From the NCBI GenBank assembly GCA_016342755.1, contig JAEINS010000006.1, positions 186,001 through 250,000 of the forward strand: DNA of 64,000 bases, in the 5' to 3' direction. Shown in pieces: positions 21,538 to 31,279 of the stretch (its first letter is position 1; each line of letters starts with the position of its first letter). This DNA is from Melioribacteraceae bacterium. GTDB taxonomy: Bacteria; Bacteroidota; Ignavibacteria; Ignavibacteriales; Melioribacteraceae. Under the pieces are notes generated by a model that worked only from the letters and a program-made list of their open reading frames with translations, had not been told where the DNA came from and made no database searches. The translations under genes and the position numbers were made by a program.

Positions 21538-21571
21538 ACCCGGTATTGCTAATTATTAGTGAATACCGGGT
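21538..21571. terminator. Bidirectional terminator between convergent genes
   Basis: ACCCGGTATT (21538-21547) and AATACCGGGT (21562-21571) form a perfect 10-bp stem with a 14-nt loop. It lies between the GH5 stop and the epimerase stop, 20 nt or more from each. U-tracts are weak on both strands. Confidence 0.65.
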
Positions 21572-21591: not shown

Positions 21592-22659
21592 CTAAAACTG
21601 CATATCTGTTATTCCAATTCCCGGAATTTGTAAAGGGCTTAGTATTCCTTTTTCCAGAGTAAATAAATTTTTAAACGGATCGCCTAACAAATCTAAATGC
21701 CCGTCTAAATCGGCAAATTCTATATTGGGTCTGCTTAACGCAAAATGCAGTCCGGCAGCAATTCCAAGTTCGCATTCATCAATACAGCCAATCATAACCT
21801 CCATATTTGCGGCTTTTGCAACAGAATTAATATGGGTTGCTTCCAATATGCCGCCCACTTTCATTAGTTTTATATTTATCATATCAATTCTATTATGCTT
21901 AACAAAACGATAAACATCCTTAAGAGATTTAAGGCTTTCATCGGCCATTACCGGTATTGATATTTGTCGGCTGACTTCTCCCATTTGTATTTCATTCTCA
22001 ATACTAATCGGCTGTTCAAAAATTTCAATTTCAGCAGATTTAGTAGATTCGTAGAAATAAACAGATTCATCGATAGAGTAGCCTTGATTACCATCAAATC
22101 TTAATATTATTTTAGGATAAGTTTTTTTAAGTGTTAATATCTTTTCAATATCCTCGTCAACATTTAATCCGCCCTTAAGCTTTATAATAAAAAAACCATT
22201 CTTAACATATTGTTCAGCTTGTTTTAAAGTTTCCTTTAAGGATAAAATACCAATAGTAATGCTTGTAGGAATTGATTCTCGAAAACCGCCTAAAAATTGA
22301 TAAAGAGGTACACCGGCTTTTTTTGATATAAGATCGAACAAAGCCATATCGGCCATAGCCAAAGAGGAAGATCGTTTTCCTAATTCATTTTTAAGTTCGT
22401 GCAGAATACGAAAATAATGGAAAGGATTGCTGTTAGTTAAACAGGGAATTATAATATCATTAATTGCTTTTTCAACATCTTCCGGTTCTTCGTTAGTTAC
22501 AACAATATCCGGAGCTGAGCAGCCAAAACCCGCTAGTCCGTTGTCGGTTTCACATCTAAGTATATAATTAGTTGTTTTAGACACAGTTTCATAAGCAATT
22601 GTATATGGCTGACTTAAATCCAGTTCAAGTTTCTTGAACGATATATTTGAAATTTTCAT
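21592..22659 (-). CDS. Dipeptide-epimerase-like enolase-superfamily protein (DgcA/YcjG type)
   Basis: A 355-residue protein of the mandelate racemase/muconate-lactonising enzyme group. The first catalytic lysine is in FFIIKLKGG near residue 160. Metal ligands are in LRFDGNQGY, IFEQP and VMADES. The second catalytic lysine is in NIKLMKVGG. The late motifs GCIDECELGIAAGLHFA and ADLDGHLDL are typical of L-Ala-D/L-Glu epimerases, whose DxDG element binds the substrate amine. Close relatives named DgcA racemise N-acetyl-glutamate in the D-glutamate pathway. The gene is the last of five on this strand and overlaps the creatininase-like stop by one base. Substrate is inferred to be an acidic dipeptide or N-acyl amino acid. 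Confidence 0.82.
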   Translation of the reverse strand: MKISNISFKKLELDLSQPYTIAYETVSKTTNYILRCETDNGLAGFGCSAPDIVVTNEEPEDVEKAINDIIIPCLTNSNPFHYFRILHELKNELGKRSSSLAMADMALFDLISKKAGVPLYQFLGGFRESIPTSITIGILSLKETLKQAEQYVKNGFFIIKLKGGLNVDEDIEKILTLKKTYPKIILRFDGNQGYSIDESVYFYESTKSAEIEIFEQPISIENEIQMGEVSRQISIPVMADESLKSLKDVYRFVKHNRIDMINIKLMKVGGILEATHINSVAKAANMEVMIGCIDECELGIAAGLHFALSRPNIEFADLDGHLDLLGDPFKNLFTLEKGILSPLQIPGIGITDMQF

Positions 22660-23459
22660 TAGTAGCGCTTCTGATATAAGTTTGATACCTGGGTTACTTT
22701 AATAAACTCTACAAATTTGGTTAACTGTTTAATCATAATGTCCCACATTGCTTCCCCTTTTTCAACAGTAGCTTTTGTAGCATCTCCCATAACTCCGCTG
22801 TCTGATATTTTACTGGTTCTTACATACCAGTTAACACCGCGTTCATTATCAAAATTTAAAAATTTATTTTTAAATTCCATTGTTTCATTAATGGCTCTAT
22901 CCATTTTTACTAAACCCGGACGCAAAGCTAAAGTAGTACTGGTCTCAATTTCTCCGGCATGAACATCGTTTGGTGTATCTGTCATTGCATATAAGTCAAC
23001 ATCGCTGGTCTCACCCGTTTCAACACAGACAAATATTTTGGCATCTCTATTTATCATTTGAGCCGCATAATTTAGTGTAGGCGCATTATCACCATGTCCG
23101 TTTATAATTATTATTTTTTTAATTCCGTTTTTAGCCAGACTCATTCCAATATCATAAATCATTAACGATAACGCATTGTTTGTAACACTAATAGTTCCTT
23201 TAAAATCATCGTGATGATAGGAAACACCATAAGGAATTACAGGAAGTACCAGAGGTTTTGGATCTGTGCAATTTTCAGCAACTTTTTTTGCCAGATAGTC
23301 AGCGTCAAAATAGTCAATATCCAAAGGCAGATGCGGACCATGCTGTTCAACAGCACCACAGGGTAAAAGAACAGTATCAGTTTTTTCTAAATATTTTTCT
23401 ACTTCTTCCCAAGTCATTTCTGCCCATAAATAATCTTTCTTTTCATAGTCAAGTTTCAT
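22659..23459 (-). CDS. Creatininase-family metal-dependent amidohydrolase
   Basis: A 266-residue protein of the creatinine amidohydrolase fold. Metal-binding and active-site motifs are LPCGAVEQHGPHLPLDIDY, VSYHHDDFKGT, IINGHGDNAP and DVHAGEIETS. The family includes creatininase, FAPy deformylase (ArfB) and mycofactocin MftE, all of which cleave amide or related C-N bonds. The open frame reaches a GTG 12 nt upstream, but GAGGAA lies just before the ATG at 23459, one base after the preceding stop, so I chose the ATG. Fourth gene of the five-gene set; in this context it may remove an acyl or peptide group from the product of its neighbours. Confidence 0.85.
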   Translation of the reverse strand: MKLDYEKKDYLWAEMTWEEVEKYLEKTDTVLLPCGAVEQHGPHLPLDIDYFDADYLAKKVAENCTDPKPLVLPVIPYGVSYHHDDFKGTISVTNNALSLMIYDIGMSLAKNGIKKIIIINGHGDNAPTLNYAAQMINRDAKIFVCVETGETSDVDLYAMTDTPNDVHAGEIETSTTLALRPGLVKMDRAINETMEFKNKFLNFDNERGVNWYVRTSKISDSGVMGDATKATVEKGEAMWDIMIKQLTKFVEFIKVTQVSNLYQKRY

Positions 23460-23460
23460 T

Positions 23461-24969
23461 TTATTCCTCACTTAAAAAATAGGGTATATCAGTATCGACT
23501 TCATTAAAATCGAATTGAACCCATTTACGATTCTGTAATTTATAAGATCCTACTGCATACAACTTTAGTATATCAAATAATTTTTTTCTTATTTCTACTG
23601 GTAAATCGCTTAGCATGCTCCGTTCATTATCAAAGCGTAAACCCATAATTTGCGGATTTGGTTTTGCCATTTTTTTAATCTCGCTGTTAGAGTTAATTAT
23701 TCCCTTTGTGTTAAGCAGATAAAAAAGATGCTGTGCGTCTGAACCAATTTGTTTAACTTTTTTTGTTTCAAGTGCTTTTAAACATTTACTGATCTTAGCT
23801 TCATCATAACCGCATCTCTCAGGATTTTCATCAAGTACTTTTAACATCCCCACAATCCTACGGCATTTTTCACATTTGCCGCATGGTTTCATTATGTCGT
23901 TTTCTTTGTGAGAGGCATGACATGATATTTGATGTTCCTGCAGTTCAGGATATCTTTTTACAAGAGTTTTAAGAATAAGCAGTTCTGATAAACTTCTTAA
24001 AATTGAAAACTGATAAAACCCCCAGCCCTTTTTTTTATAATAGCGGGTTAACGCATTGTCAAAATATTTGCTCTGGTCGTATAAAGCAGCATAATGAGTT
24101 ATTCCATTATAATTAAGTTTTAATGTTGTATCGTATTCATTACCAATAATTATATTACGGATATTTCTTTTTCTGGCTACCGGAAGTACACCGAATAAAA
24201 ATATTGCTACGGTCCACAATCTTATTGGATAAATATCAGCCCTAATATCCTGAAAGTTACTTTTAATAAATGGCATCTGTTTAACCATCCAGTTAAAGAT
24301 CCTGTCGCTATTACACCAGGGTTTAACGGTATTTGGTTCATGTTCCTTAAAATAAAGATATGAGTTGTAGGCAGTAAACCAGTGTCTGCCCGATTCGTTT
24401 ATAAATACCGGATGTGTTTCATATAGTTCGTTTAAAATACCGTAGCTAAGCAGACTGTCTTTACCGCCGCTGCTGAGGATTACAAATTTTTCACTATCGG
24501 GTTTGGAAGATTCCTTTTTAAGAACTGTATTCTGATAGTCGTTATTTTCAAAGATAATTTCAGCTCCGGTATATTTATGTTTCTGCTCAGGTTCAATCTT
24601 ATCGAACGGGGGAGATAAAAATTCGTTTGGCATAAGGAACTTGTTTACAAATATTTCGCGCGAAGTATTTTCTGTCATGTCTTTTATAAATCGTTTATCC
24701 GCTTCATCGTAAAGCCCGTCGAATACAATTTTTTTACAAAACAGACCATAGTTAATTGCGGCTTGTGCTGCCATAACAGAGGCTAAATTTATATCACCGG
24801 CATTTTTAACATCAAAAAAGTTCTCTTTATAAGAATAGATAAATTCATTGCTTACTGTTTCATTATTTGCTTTTTCTAGTGTGTAAACTGATATAACTCT
24901 TTTAGGTTCAACTTTAATTTTATGAACTTTCAAACATTCAAAAACAATTAAATCTGCAATCTTTGCCAT
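23461..24969 (-). CDS. PP-loop ATP-pyrophosphatase, resembling MurL-type glutamate epimerases
   Basis: A 502-residue protein. The N-terminal 150 residues form a beta-rich region with a helical NLASVMAAQAAINYGLF segment. The nucleotide-binding PP-loop follows as FVILSSGGKDSLLSYGI, at about residues 160-176. Next are NIIIGNEYDTT and a metal-type cysteine set, CGKCEKCRR, with an upstream ISCHASH. PP-loop enzymes adenylate a substrate and release pyrophosphate. The order of a beta-rich N-domain followed by a GGKDS domain recalls MurL, which uses ATP to epimerise L-Glu in UDP-MurNAc-L-Ala-L-Glu; I rate that as plausible, not shown. QueC- and asparagine-synthase-like roles are alternatives. It lies 3 nt after the DUF1611 gene. 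Confidence 0.6.
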   Translation of the reverse strand: MAKIADLIVFECLKVHKIKVEPKRVISVYTLEKANNETVSNEFIYSYKENFFDVKNAGDINLASVMAAQAAINYGLFCKKIVFDGLYDEADKRFIKDMTENTSREIFVNKFLMPNEFLSPPFDKIEPEQKHKYTGAEIIFENNDYQNTVLKKESSKPDSEKFVILSSGGKDSLLSYGILNELYETHPVFINESGRHWFTAYNSYLYFKEHEPNTVKPWCNSDRIFNWMVKQMPFIKSNFQDIRADIYPIRLWTVAIFLFGVLPVARKRNIRNIIIGNEYDTTLKLNYNGITHYAALYDQSKYFDNALTRYYKKKGWGFYQFSILRSLSELLILKTLVKRYPELQEHQISCHASHKENDIMKPCGKCEKCRRIVGMLKVLDENPERCGYDEAKISKCLKALETKKVKQIGSDAQHLFYLLNTKGIINSNSEIKKMAKPNPQIMGLRFDNERSMLSDLPVEIRKKLFDILKLYAVGSYKLQNRKWVQFDFNEVDTDIPYFLSEE

Positions 24970-24972
24970 TGT

Positions 24973-26049
24973 TTATACTTTAAGTTTAGTTATCAATAAA
25001 TTGTTAAGTTCTTTTGTTCCATATTTTAGAACATCAAAACAGGGAAGTCCGGTTTGTTCAGTTATTAATTTACAAGCCGGAAGAATTTCTTCTTCGCTCA
25101 TATCTTCATGGTTTAGAGTAACGGCTATAACATCTTTACCCGAAATAACTTTAATAGCGTTTATCTGTTCATCCAGCGTATGAAGTCTATAGCCGGGAAA
25201 TCCATCATATTCAAGTCTTTTAGGTGCATGCTGTAGAATTACAAAATCGGGTCTTCCGGCAGCCAGTATCTCAAAACCTCCGGGATATGCGGGATTCATT
25301 AAACTTCCCTGTCCTTCAATTATAATAATATCCGGATTTTCATTTTTCCAGGCGCTTACTACCGCATATTCAATTTCACCAGCTACAAAATCATTAATAC
25401 AGCTATCCATTATCATATTATATTTTGTTCCCTGCATCCAGGCTGTCTGACCGGTTCCAATCATTTCGGCTTTATAATTAGCTTCAGTTAAGCCGTTTAC
25501 TATTAGTCTTGCGGTTGTTCTTTTTCCTATGGCCGAATCGGTACCCAAAACCGCAAGTTTAAGGCAATTTACTTTTTCAATATCTCCTGTAAAAAAGTGT
25601 AGTTTATCTCTATCAGGAGTTTTTCGTATATCTCTGATTTTACAGTTTTTTTCTTCGGCTAATTTTACAAATTCCATATCATTCGATATAAAATCGTGAA
25701 GACCGGAATCTACATTTAATCCATAAGACAAAGCCTTATAAATTTCTGTTTTTGCTGAGTGTGGAAGTCTTCCTCCATCGGGTGCTAATCCGATTACAAA
25801 ATGTGTTGGCGTAATACCTTTTTCGGATAAAGCCTGATAAGCGGAATCCAAATCACTATAGATTTGAATACCGTTGTTTTTTTTATCAAGTACAAATCCG
25901 CTGTCAGCTCCGGTATACTTTTTATCGATAACAGCAGTTACTTCATATCTCTTAGTAAAACGGACTAATCCATGCGCGGTTTTTCCGTTTGGTGTATTAA
26001 ATGCATCCTGGCAATATACAATTGCCTTTCCATCAATTTTTGTTTTCAT
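24973..26049 (-). CDS. DUF1611-family P-loop protein (DgcN-like N-acyltransferase)
   Basis: A 358-residue cytoplasmic protein of the DUF1611 family. It has a Rossmann-like N-terminal half with FVIGLAPDGGRLP near residue 90. A P-loop-type C-terminal half begins LAVLGTDSAIGKRTTARLIVNGL near residue 166 and carries MIGTGQTAWMQG, IIIEGQGSLMNPAYPGG and QHAPKRLEYDGFP. DgcN proteins of this family acetylate D-glutamate and work with DgcA, which is annotated as a dipeptide epimerase; a DgcA-like gene ends this cluster. Acyl-transfer to an acidic amino acid is therefore the best guess. It starts 20 nt after the PLP gene. Confidence 0.75.
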   Translation of the reverse strand: MKTKIDGKAIVYCQDAFNTPNGKTAHGLVRFTKRYEVTAVIDKKYTGADSGFVLDKKNNGIQIYSDLDSAYQALSEKGITPTHFVIGLAPDGGRLPHSAKTEIYKALSYGLNVDSGLHDFISNDMEFVKLAEEKNCKIRDIRKTPDRDKLHFFTGDIEKVNCLKLAVLGTDSAIGKRTTARLIVNGLTEANYKAEMIGTGQTAWMQGTKYNMIMDSCINDFVAGEIEYAVVSAWKNENPDIIIIEGQGSLMNPAYPGGFEILAAGRPDFVILQHAPKRLEYDGFPGYRLHTLDEQINAIKVISGKDVIAVTLNHEDMSEEEILPACKLITEQTGLPCFDVLKYGTKELNNLLITKLKV

Positions 26050-26069
26050 TTTTACCTGTATTAATTTAA

Positions 26070-27131
26070 TTAGTATTTAGCTGTTAACACAGCAACATAT
26101 CTATCCGGTTCTAACCGTTCTTTTTCATGAAGTCTTAAAAGAGCAATTAGTCCGGCTGTAGAAGCAGGAAGCACACGTATACCTTCTTTTTTACTTAAGA
26201 ACGCATACATATCTTTCATGCTTTTATCACTAATATTATATGCGGCTCCTTCACTTTTATGTAAAGCGTACAATGCTTCTTCTCCATCAAAACTGTGCCA
26301 GTTAATTAAAGGTTCATTAAGTTTTGTCTCTTTAATTAATTCAGGTTTTAAATCTTCGCAGGTTTCATATTTTTTTAAAAATGAATTTACAATCGGATTT
26401 TTATCAACTGATGAGGCAGCTATCATTTTTGGTATTCTTGATGTACGGCCTCTTTTATAAAGAGACACAAATCCCCTGTAAATTCCCGCAAGTAAAGTCC
26501 CGTTAGAAACTGGTACAGCGCAGTATTTAGGCGCATCACGTAATTCTTCGTATATCTCAATTGCTATATGAGAATAGGAAATAATTTGAAGAGGAGTATT
26601 TAAGCCGCCCGGATTTGCGTCATACCATTCATTGCTTAAAGCCACTCCACTGCTGTGTTTTACAGCATCTTCATAACTGCCGTCAGTTCTGTGTATTGTT
26701 GCTCCCAGTTCACTCATTTCATCAAGTCTGTCTGAATGGTAATTATCGGGAATATAAATATGGCATTTTATACCCGAAAGTTTTGAAGCAAGTGCCATTG
26801 AAACACCGTAATTTCCGCATGTTGCCAGACCTACTTCATCATAACCCCGTCGTAAAGCGTCAAAAATCTGGGCAAATGCTATTCTGTCTTTTTGGGTCCC
26901 GGTTGGATTGTCTCCTTCAAACTTTATGTATAACTGCCTTAGTTCGTACTCTCTTTCAATAGTTTTAGTTCGCTTTAAAGTAGTATCGCCAACCTCAATG
27001 TTAATGATATCTTCAAAAGCTTCAAGCCTGTCAATAAGATTATATGACTTATCTTTTACAGCATCACTTAATACTTTAACATCCCCCGAAATTTTATTAT
27101 CCGAGGTTCTTACTGAATCTCTTATGTTCAT
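26070..27131 (-). CDS. Fold-type II PLP enzyme (threonine synthase/cysteate synthase-like)
   Basis: A 353-residue PLP enzyme of the tryptophan synthase beta fold. The Schiff-base lysine is in EGDNPTGTQKDR near residue 83, equivalent to NPTGSFKDR of threonine synthase. The substrate loop is LATCGNYGVSMA, and VPVSNGTLLAGIYRG corresponds to the phosphate-binding glycine loop. Members do beta- or gamma-replacement or elimination on phospho- or acyl-amino acids. It lacks the zinc ribbon of some cysteate synthases and the long N-terminal domain of threonine synthases. It is the promoter-proximal gene of the five-gene minus-strand cluster and probably makes or breaks the amino-acid building block used by the rest. 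Confidence 0.8.
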   Translation of the reverse strand: MNIRDSVRTSDNKISGDVKVLSDAVKDKSYNLIDRLEAFEDIINIEVGDTTLKRTKTIEREYELRQLYIKFEGDNPTGTQKDRIAFAQIFDALRRGYDEVGLATCGNYGVSMALASKLSGIKCHIYIPDNYHSDRLDEMSELGATIHRTDGSYEDAVKHSSGVALSNEWYDANPGGLNTPLQIISYSHIAIEIYEELRDAPKYCAVPVSNGTLLAGIYRGFVSLYKRGRTSRIPKMIAASSVDKNPIVNSFLKKYETCEDLKPELIKETKLNEPLINWHSFDGEEALYALHKSEGAAYNISDKSMKDMYAFLSKKEGIRVLPASTAGLIALLRLHEKERLEPDRYVAVLTAKY

Positions 27132-29758: not shown

Positions 29759-31279
29759 TTATATTTTTTTTAGTTCATAAATATCGGTGCGGCGATCTTT
29801 TAAGTTACGCACAGTTCCAAACTGATTTAGTTCTCTTAATAAATCAATATCAACATCCGCAATTAAAATCATTTCGGTGTTTGGAGTTGCCTCCGCTTTT
29901 ATTCCGTTTGCTGGAAATGAAAAATCGCACGGAGTAAAAACCATTGACTGTGAATACTGTATATCCATATTATGTACTTTAGGAAGATTGCCAACGCTTC
30001 CGGCAATTGCAACATAACATTCGTTTTCAATTGCTCTGGCCTGGGCACAGTGCCTGACACGCGAATATCCGTTCTGGGTATCAGTTAGATATGGAACAAA
30101 CAAAATATCCATTCCCTGATTTGCAAGTAATCTGCTTACCTCGGGAAACTCAATGTCGTAACAAATTAAAACTCCAATCTTACCGCAGTCAGTATCAAAA
30201 GCTTTTATTCCTTTTCCGCCCTGTAATCCCCAAACCTTTACTTCATCGGGTGTAACGTGAAGTTTTTCAAATCTTTCAACAGCGCCGTCCCGTTTGCATA
30301 AATAGCCTACGTTAAATAAATCAAGGTCTTTTAATTCAGGCATACTGCCGGTAATTATATTTATATTATATGATATTGCCAGTTCTGAAAATTTTAGTAC
30401 TAATGATTCTGTGTGTTTGGCAAGTTCTCTAATTGCTTCAGGCTCCGATAAATGATTATTTTCTGCCATTAAAGGTGCATTAAAAAATTCCGGGAAAAGC
30501 GCAAAATCAGCTCTGTATCCTGAAACCGCGTCAATAAAATATTCAGCCTGCTGCATAAGTTCATCAATGTTATTGTACAGACGCATCTGCCATTGTATTA
30601 AACCCAGACGAATTACTTTTTTTACGGTGTGGGCTTTTTTATTTGGTTTTTCATAATAAATATTATCCCATTCCAGCAAAACCGCATAATCGTTAGATTC
30701 TTTATCACCTTCTAAATAGCCGGTTAAAATTTTTGCCGGATGAAAATCATTAGACATCTGAAAATCAAGAACAGGATCATGAATTTCCTTGTTCCTTACT
30801 TTTTCTATATACTGTTTAGGAGTTAATTCTTTTGAATATTTATGATAATTTGGAATCCGTCCGCCAAAAGCTATTCCCTTTAAATTAAGCTTTTCGCAAA
30901 GTTCTTTTCTGTAATCGTATAAACGCCGTCCTAAACGGAGTCCTCTAAATTCGGGACGTATAAATATATCTATTCCGTATATCATATCTCCATTTGGATC
31001 GTGTGTATTAAAAGAATAATTCCCGATTACTTCATTATATGTATGCCTGTAATCGAACTTTTCATAATCAACAATTATTGAAAGCGCGCATCCGGCAAAT
31101 TTGTTATTTACTTTAATTACAATCTGACCTTCTTTAAATTTTGAAATTAAAGTTTCAATATCCTTACGCTTCCAATAGGATTCTGGCATTTGTTCGTATG
31201 ATTCAATCATTGATTCTTTCATTTCATCGTAATCATCCGGACTTAGATAGGTTAATTCTATGTTCTCAATATCATGCAT
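29759..31279 (-). CDS. GNAT acetyltransferase-nitrilase superfamily fusion (YhcX-like)
   Basis: A 506-residue two-domain protein. Residues 1-220 form a GNAT domain, with FIRPEFRGLRLGRRLYDYR as the acetyl-CoA loop. Residues 225-506 form a carbon-nitrogen hydrolase domain. Its catalytic triad is Glu in LFPEFFNAP, Lys in FEKLHVTPDE and Cys in VLICYDIEFPE. The same arrangement is known in Bacillus YhcX and many Bacteroidota. The substrate is unknown; amidase or deamidase work on an acetylated amine or acylated peptide is plausible. The gene stands alone between convergent and upstream non-coding borders. Confidence 0.85.
   Translation of the reverse strand: MHDIENIELTYLSPDDYDEMKESMIESYEQMPESYWKRKDIETLISKFKEGQIVIKVNNKFAGCALSIIVDYEKFDYRHTYNEVIGNYSFNTHDPNGDMIYGIDIFIRPEFRGLRLGRRLYDYRKELCEKLNLKGIAFGGRIPNYHKYSKELTPKQYIEKVRNKEIHDPVLDFQMSNDFHPAKILTGYLEGDKESNDYAVLLEWDNIYYEKPNKKAHTVKKVIRLGLIQWQMRLYNNIDELMQQAEYFIDAVSGYRADFALFPEFFNAPLMAENNHLSEPEAIRELAKHTESLVLKFSELAISYNINIITGSMPELKDLDLFNVGYLCKRDGAVERFEKLHVTPDEVKVWGLQGGKGIKAFDTDCGKIGVLICYDIEFPEVSRLLANQGMDILFVPYLTDTQNGYSRVRHCAQARAIENECYVAIAGSVGNLPKVHNMDIQYSQSMVFTPCDFSFPANGIKAEATPNTEMILIADVDIDLLRELNQFGTVRNLKDRRTDIYELKKI

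Follow-up and report, generated by a model that had tools for sequence, protein, structure and literature searches.

Several described systems share individual components with the gene cluster examined here. The DgcN/DgcA pathway (NCBIfam NF041892 and NF042940) combines a DUF1611 protein with an enolase-superfamily racemase, and we know of no fold-type-II pyridoxal phosphate (PLP) enzyme, PP-loop enzyme or creatininase that partners it. AsnB, GMP synthetase and NAD synthetase are fusions of a glutamine amidotransferase with a PP-loop synthetase, and the enolase superfamily also includes dipeptide epimerases with solved structures (1jpm, 3jva and 3rit). Among PP-loop enzymes, canonical QueC, QatC of the qatABCD system and Cap9 of type IV cyclic-oligonucleotide-based antiphage signalling systems (CBASS) share an SGGxDS loop and a CGxCxxC-type motif; in one report, QueC and Cap9 are described as using ATP to activate a carboxylate that is then attacked by ammonia or an amine to yield an amide (PMC13279940). 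Here we describe a five-gene operon in a 64,000-nucleotide stretch of DNA (hereafter ‘the window’) from a Melioribacteraceae bacterium (contig JAEINS010000006.1, positions 186,001 to 250,000). A five-enzyme set of the same composition and gene order is found again in very distantly related bacteria, and it is therefore almost certain that the genes serve a single, undescribed small-molecule pathway.

An initial sequence-only reading of the window had placed the five genes on the minus strand with gaps of 20, 3, 1 and -1 nt, and we obtained the same layout from the sequence (Table 1). Its family assignments were likewise borne out, in that Pfam and NCBIfam models name four of the proteins; the fifth, a PP-loop protein, has no such match and is placed in the QueC/QatC fold by its predicted structure. 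We refer to the products as PALP (a PLP enzyme of the threonine-synthase group), the DUF1611 protein, PPL (the PP-loop enzyme), CRE (a creatininase-family amidohydrolase) and MLE (a dipeptide-epimerase-like member of the enolase superfamily). The longest reading frame of CRE begins at a GTG at position 23471; its length in the table is counted from an ATG. Plus-strand genes for a GH5 cellulase-like protein and a TPR histidine kinase flank the operon. A search upstream of the window operon for a riboswitch that might name a ligand gave only a chance-level mir-16 match, which we rejected.

Table 1. Features of the window operon and its surroundings (positions are those of the window).
Feature	Position	Strand	Remarks
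PALP, fold-type-II PLP enzyme, threonine-synthase group	26070-27131	minus	353 aa; K81 in NPTGTQKDR
DUF1611 protein	24973-26049	minus	358 aa; Rossmann-like N domain, P-loop C domain with GTDSAxGKRTT
PPL, QueC/QatC-fold PP-loop enzyme (predicted)	23461-24969	minus	502 aa; SSGGKDS loop, C-x12-CGxCxxCRR motif
CRE, creatininase-family amidohydrolase	22659-23459	minus	266 aa from ATG; assigned by Pfam/NCBIfam
MLE, enolase-superfamily dipeptide-epimerase-like protein	21592-22659	minus	355 aa; KxK, D189/E215/D240, K264, DLD motif
Hairpin, possible terminator	21538-21571	minus	10-bp perfect stem, 14-nt loop, just 3' of the last gene; found by eye
GNAT-nitrilase fusion protein	29759-31279	minus	~2.6 kb upstream of the operon; loosely linked accessory candidate

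The strongest evidence that these genes form a functional unit comes from their co-occurrence elsewhere. Scanning named species genomes with a PPL alignment yielded 152 relatives; we took the best 80 and added two further relatives, which gave 82 loci for examination. Among the 67 loci with room on both sides, 55 carry all five families within 6 kb, and an identical gene order on a single strand is evident in 58 of the 82, a count that includes loci cut by contig ends and depends on crude calling of open reading frames. The neighbourhood comparison across distant genomes proposed in the initial reading thus came out in favour of a conserved unit: the 55 complete loci bear eleven phylum labels (read from record titles, such that some may be misassigned), namely Bacteroidota with 26 loci, Myxococcota with five, Thermodesulfobacteriota and Ignavibacteriota with three each, Acidobacteriota with two and six further labels with one locus each, while the remaining 10 of the 55 are unlabelled. 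Named strains among the PPL hosts cover Bacteroidota and Desulfosarcina. Distribution is patchy on a finer scale, with PPL present in eight of 97 whole genomes of relatives (the window genome included); close homologues of PALP (E<=1e-50) are confined to these eight, one per genome.

The association between PPL and CRE is particularly tight. CRE is fused to PPL or lies within 6 kb of it at 81 of the 82 loci, L060 being the exception (identifiers beginning with L or G are our labels for loci and genomes), and the two are fused in 41 and separate in 26 of the 67 rows of the PPL tree, from which L060 and L096 were left out. Our literature searches did not find a DUF1611 protein, a dipeptide epimerase and a creatininase described together, and those on DUF1611 or on pairs of related pathway terms returned only unrelated topics, as judged by title. 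As far as we have searched, the PP-loop/creatininase fusion has no described counterpart, and the set as a whole is as undescribed as the initial reading had supposed.

PPL itself has no Pfam or NCBIfam match at E<=0.001, and sequence searches of solved structures gave no useful match. Weak matches to Pfam QueC are found for 38 of 69 PPL members (best E 7e-4) and to DUF6395, for which a literature search found nothing, in 42 of 69. An AlphaFold model built from 69 sequences has high confidence scores (pLDDT 92, pTM 0.91), and the top solved fold for this model is QatC (Foldseek E 6.3e-5, Z 13.6, root-mean-square deviation 4.8 over 317 residues), in an alignment that spans residues 9-429 and includes an N-terminal extension that the two proteins have in common. 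QueC (Z 13.1) and Cap9 (Z 11.9) are next, and PPL is 9 to 18 percent identical to these structures. The ATP loop is present as S167-G-G-K-D-S172; S166-S-G-G-K170, S172 and four cysteines are invariant in 69 rows, and D171 is replaced by Glu in three. The cysteines of the window protein are spaced C-x12-CxxCxxC, compared with C(x)8CxxCxxC in the QueC zinc motif.

Despite these similarities, PPL differs from QueC, QatC and Cap9 in its substrate loops. YxQxHxxE and YPDC are given as substrate motifs of QueC in the accessible part of a survey of the QueC family (PMC13329287), and PPL has NESGRHWFT and [YF]DQS instead, as judged by eye and sequence order in an alignment of eight proteins. The same part of that survey, dated July 2026, recognises clusters of QueC, QatC, LarE, nucleoside-salvage enzymes, N-sugar amidotransferases, GMP synthetase and Cap9; no creatininase-linked cluster was seen in it, and its three archaeal clusters are left unanalysed there (PMC13329287). 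PPL is further distinguished by being fused to or encoded beside a creatininase, and neither a QatB nor a CD-NTase partner was seen at PPL loci. The genes qatA, qatB and qatD are missing from the operon, whose other four genes are those named above, in a comparison for which flanking genes were clustered and samples of them profiled. On the strength of the structure model, we predict that PPL is a new family of QueC/QatC-fold enzymes and, because of this fold, that its likely reaction is adenylation of a carboxylate followed by amide formation.

The remaining four proteins are recognisable members of known families. PALP matches PF00291 with 185.7 bits and the NCBIfam threonine synthase model PRK06381 with 403.8 bits (cut-off 266), which makes it a putative enzyme of this type, and its K81 is invariant across 56 rows. 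Both the N and C domains of the DUF1611 protein are matched; distantly related to the N-acetyltransferase DgcN, it scores 144 bits against a cut-off of 480 with the DgcN model of the NF041892/NF042940 set. CRE aligns with the whole creatininase profile PF02633 (positions 1-238 of 238, 244 bits, cut-off 31.3) and is under the NCBIfam equivalog cut-offs for creatininase (123.4 of 235) and MftE (150.3 of 172). MLE, in which the MR_MLE N and C domains are matched, is similarly under the NCBIfam cut-offs for L-Ala-D/L-Glu epimerase (234.9 of 500) and DgcA (127.1 of 400), and forms a subfamily of its own.

Several features of MLE are nevertheless those of a dipeptide epimerase. It matches 1jpm, 3jva and 3rit over its full length and possesses the Lys-x-Lys element, the Asp/Glu/Asp metal ligands and the second catalytic lysine; K160, K162, D189, E215, D240, K264, D317 and D319 are invariant in 55 rows. 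The sequence D317-L-D319 fits the DxD motif of these enzymes, which we take to engage the ammonium group of the dipeptide. In contrast, of the 55 rows, 52 have Glu at residue 24, two have Gln and one has Asp, whereas 1jpm, the L-Ala-D/L-Glu epimerase of Bacillus subtilis, has an Arg that presumably contacts the Glu side chain. If anything, this disfavours an acidic substrate for the pathway. A cationic dipeptide substrate might be proposed from E24 as well, and this candidate is weakened by a lysine at the same position in five of seven copies of a second epimerase described below.

DUF1611 proteins in general have a wider distribution than the operon, being found in 20 of the 97 relative genomes, where they also have different neighbours, for example a PLP racemase-like gene. 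As separate observations, the window genome carries on contig C25 (L018, 5913-8731) a further DUF1611 gene of divergent sequence (40 percent) that overlaps a gene for an alanine-racemase-fold protein and is followed by a gene of the D-Ala-D-Ala dipeptidase (M15) family; such DUF1611-racemase pairs also occur in L120, L122 and L128. In G015 (L130, 2278-6924), a DUF1611 domain lies behind a subtilisin domain in a single protein of 651 aa, beside an adenylyltransferase family gene and a small gene that by eye is acyl-carrier-like, in what looks like a natural-product cluster.

Loci that do not carry all five genes nearby are also informative. PALP was found by genome search in the genomes of all 12 such loci, and those of L028, L033 and L036 still hold all five families, with the DUF1611 and PPL genes of L028 split by approximately 8 kb of other genes. 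In Eudoraea isolate Ww469 (L164, 4915-13148), approximately 8 kb including a beta-lactamase-family gene lies between DUF1611 and PPL. G098, G111 and G112 have DUF1611 only as a divergent copy (40-42 percent), and a genome search of G110 found none. The operonic MLE is missing from nine of the 12 genomes, seven of which have a divergent homologue that we call MLE2; its gene adjoins a second DUF1611 gene in five of the seven. By comparison, none of the 32 searched genomes with an operonic MLE has MLE2, defined as a match of at least 40 percent outside the operon, and a single 45-percent fragment among these turned out to be the missing piece of an operonic MLE gene that is split in two. Among the genomes compared, G098 bears a phylum label that differs from that of most others. 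From these sequence patterns, we read MLE2 as a likely replacement of the operonic epimerase in trans, and since it stands in for the missing gene in most of these genomes, the epimerase step would appear to be needed. By sequence comparison, MLE2 is closest to 3rit, which we take to be a cationic-dipeptide epimerase.

The operon also appears to have been transferred in one piece, the copy in the window having come from a mostly-Bacteroidota branch. In a PPL tree, the window protein sits in this branch, apart from seven other members of its own host family, and a constraint grouping the eight family members was rejected (approximately unbiased test, p 4.3e-78; the group was named after the identities had been seen). 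In trees of PALP, DUF1611 and MLE, the rows closest to the window proteins likewise come from Bacteroidota, and it is this agreement among the four gene trees that we made that suggests joint transfer.

Given these observations, our preferred though tentative reading is that the five genes encode a single pathway, mobile by horizontal transfer, for making or remodelling an amide derived from an amino acid or dipeptide. Such a pathway would probably acylate, epimerise and amidate its substrate; we infer the reactions, substrates and product alike from the enzyme families. PALP would make or modify an amino acid by replacement chemistry, and the DUF1611 protein, acting like DgcN, would N-acylate an amino acid. 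MLE would epimerise the acylated amino acid or a dipeptide by passing a proton between two lysines. PPL would use ATP to adenylate a carboxylate, to which it would then join ammonia or an amine. CRE, physically coupled to PPL, would hydrolyse an amide and thereby either feed an amine to PPL or remove the acyl group.

The PPL-CRE pair resembles the glutamine amidotransferase fusions, in that an amide hydrolase is joined to a PP-loop synthetase. By analogy, the pair might be a new amidotransferase in which a creatininase-type hydrolase hands ammonia or an amine to a QueC-like adenylating domain. This is the most daring of our readings and an unlikely one; the hydrolase is of a different type, and the transfer of ammonia is putative. 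A model of the fused protein has a pTM of 0.65, and its domain orientation was not used.

A number of points weigh against our reading. The order of the steps is a guess, and the reactions themselves are deduced from family resemblance. Titles starting ‘MAG’ mark more than half of the 80 records as metagenome bins. The contrast in MLE2 occurrence (7 of 9 versus 0 of 32, Fisher p 1.6e-6) ignores relatedness. Two genomes, G110 and G119, have neither the operonic MLE nor MLE2 and are either misfits or incomplete. Residue 24, which is thought to read the substrate, is Glu in MLE and Lys in five of seven MLE2 proteins; either this residue is uninformative, or MLE and MLE2 are not equivalent. Finally, we do not claim an internal product because DUF2179 membrane proteins adjoin eight of the 82 loci.

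The foremost alternative is an extended route of D-glutamate or other D-amino acid catabolism, in which the DUF1611 protein acetylates, MLE racemises, CRE deacylates, and PALP and PPL process the product. The DUF1611-MLE pair does resemble DgcN/DgcA, separate DUF1611-MLE2 pairs exist, and many PPL host genera are, we assume, marine, which we counted in favour of this route. However, the two proteins score far under the DgcN and DgcA cut-offs, with the dipeptide-epimerase model scoring higher for MLE; such a route has no need of PALP or of an ATP-using enzyme that forms amides; and no transporter or regulator occupies a fixed place, although CorA-like and DUF2179 genes each occur in eight of 82 flanks. 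We therefore judge this explanation unlikely on balance. The initial reading had offered an extended D-Glu route, which these scores and the Glu at MLE residue 24 do not favour, and had counted two possible epimerases, of which the PP-loop protein is now predicted to have the QueC/QatC fold. What stands of that reading is the conserved, undescribed set.

A slimmer chance attaches to a system of the QueC/QatC/Cap9 type, in which PPL would couple 7-carboxy-7-deazaguanine (CDG) to a molecule or protein, possibly for phage defence. The fold, the cysteine motif and the patchy distribution of PPL are all compatible with such a role. Against these stand the altered QueC motifs, the lack of any visible partner substrate protein, and a PADLOC analysis in which the window PPL had no match and 13 of 69 members matched QueC, but only weakly. 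Moreover, preQ0/deazaguanine chemistry is unlikely to supply the general substrate of PPL because full-length canonical QueC was not found in seven of 21 PPL genomes, three of which (G098, G101 and G102) also gave no full-length match to QueE. The latter result is weak, since it comes from a single gammaproteobacterial model that finds no QueE in G108 either, although G108 has QueC. As an observation in its own right, G104-G107 (L020, L023, L034 and L038) have a full-length QueE-like match and no full-length QueC, and possibly possess a CDG synthase without the usual next enzyme.

Even less probable is an alternative supply of D-glutamate for peptidoglycan, with PPL serving as an ATP-dependent epimerase like MurL. 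MurL is reported to consume ATP with release of AMP, presumably by way of an adenylated substrate (PMC8788868), and ATP-dependent chemistry of this kind on a peptide carboxylate would be feasible for a PP-loop enzyme; our comparison with MurL is by its described chemistry alone. However, no MurD2-like partner is among the five genes, and peptidoglycan D-Glu is an unlikely purpose of the cluster because glutamate racemase MurI is above its cut-off in 19 of 21 PPL genomes. Lastly, every named family has housekeeping relatives, but a chance gathering of unrelated housekeeping genes can be dismissed given the gene order kept under many phylum labels, the gene fusion, the joint transfer and the shared presence of PPL and PALP noted above.

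Beyond the five genes assigned to our preferred pathway, no gene occupies one fixed place across all 82 loci, and yet some families recur in the flanks. DUF2179 membrane proteins of two kinds, with either a DUF5698 or a YitT part, are encoded on the same strand beside the operon in L064, L070, L077, L083, L085, L086, L088 and L089, and on the other strand in L093; representative genes lie at L070 11521-12108, L083 4633-5226, L085 4529-5134, L086 11398-12255, L088 11511-12368 and L089 11437-12333. In the non-Bacteroidota branch, these proteins could possibly assist the pathway in transport or sensing. Other flanking genes among the 82 loci, counted by family with Pfam checks on samples and with no background rate, encode CorA-like (8), beta-lactamase-like (9) and MscS-like (4) proteins, sigma-54 regulators (6) and extracytoplasmic function sigma factors (6). 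CorA-like and MscS-like genes lie side by side in L044 (11761-13752), L070 (12138-14392) and L071 (46-2019), which have differing phylum labels.

A GNAT-nitrilase fusion gene near the window operon also recurs, in the flanks of six of the 82 loci and additionally in the window and G014. It immediately follows the operon in L028, L033 and L036 (76-77 percent identity) and immediately precedes it in L129. The gene is present in 26 of 97 relatives and in seven of the eight PPL genomes (p 3e-4, relatedness ignored). We rejected it as a sixth core gene given its presence in so few flanks and its location elsewhere in the genome in G009, G031, G032 and G046.

The order of this five-enzyme set persists across eleven phylum labels, the set has moved in one piece, and a gene elsewhere in the genome apparently covers for a part that has been lost. 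All this suggests a metabolite that truly matters to its hosts, one that has not been named so far in the literature we searched. If PPL-CRE does prove to be an amidotransferase, then bacteria of many phyla would have in common a hitherto undescribed compound, an amide built from an epimerised amino acid or dipeptide that might act as a solute or cofactor. Given that the hosts include cultured members of Maribacter, Aquimarina, Flexithrix and Lewinella as well as Desulfosarcina alkanivorans, the product should be findable by gene deletion and metabolomics.

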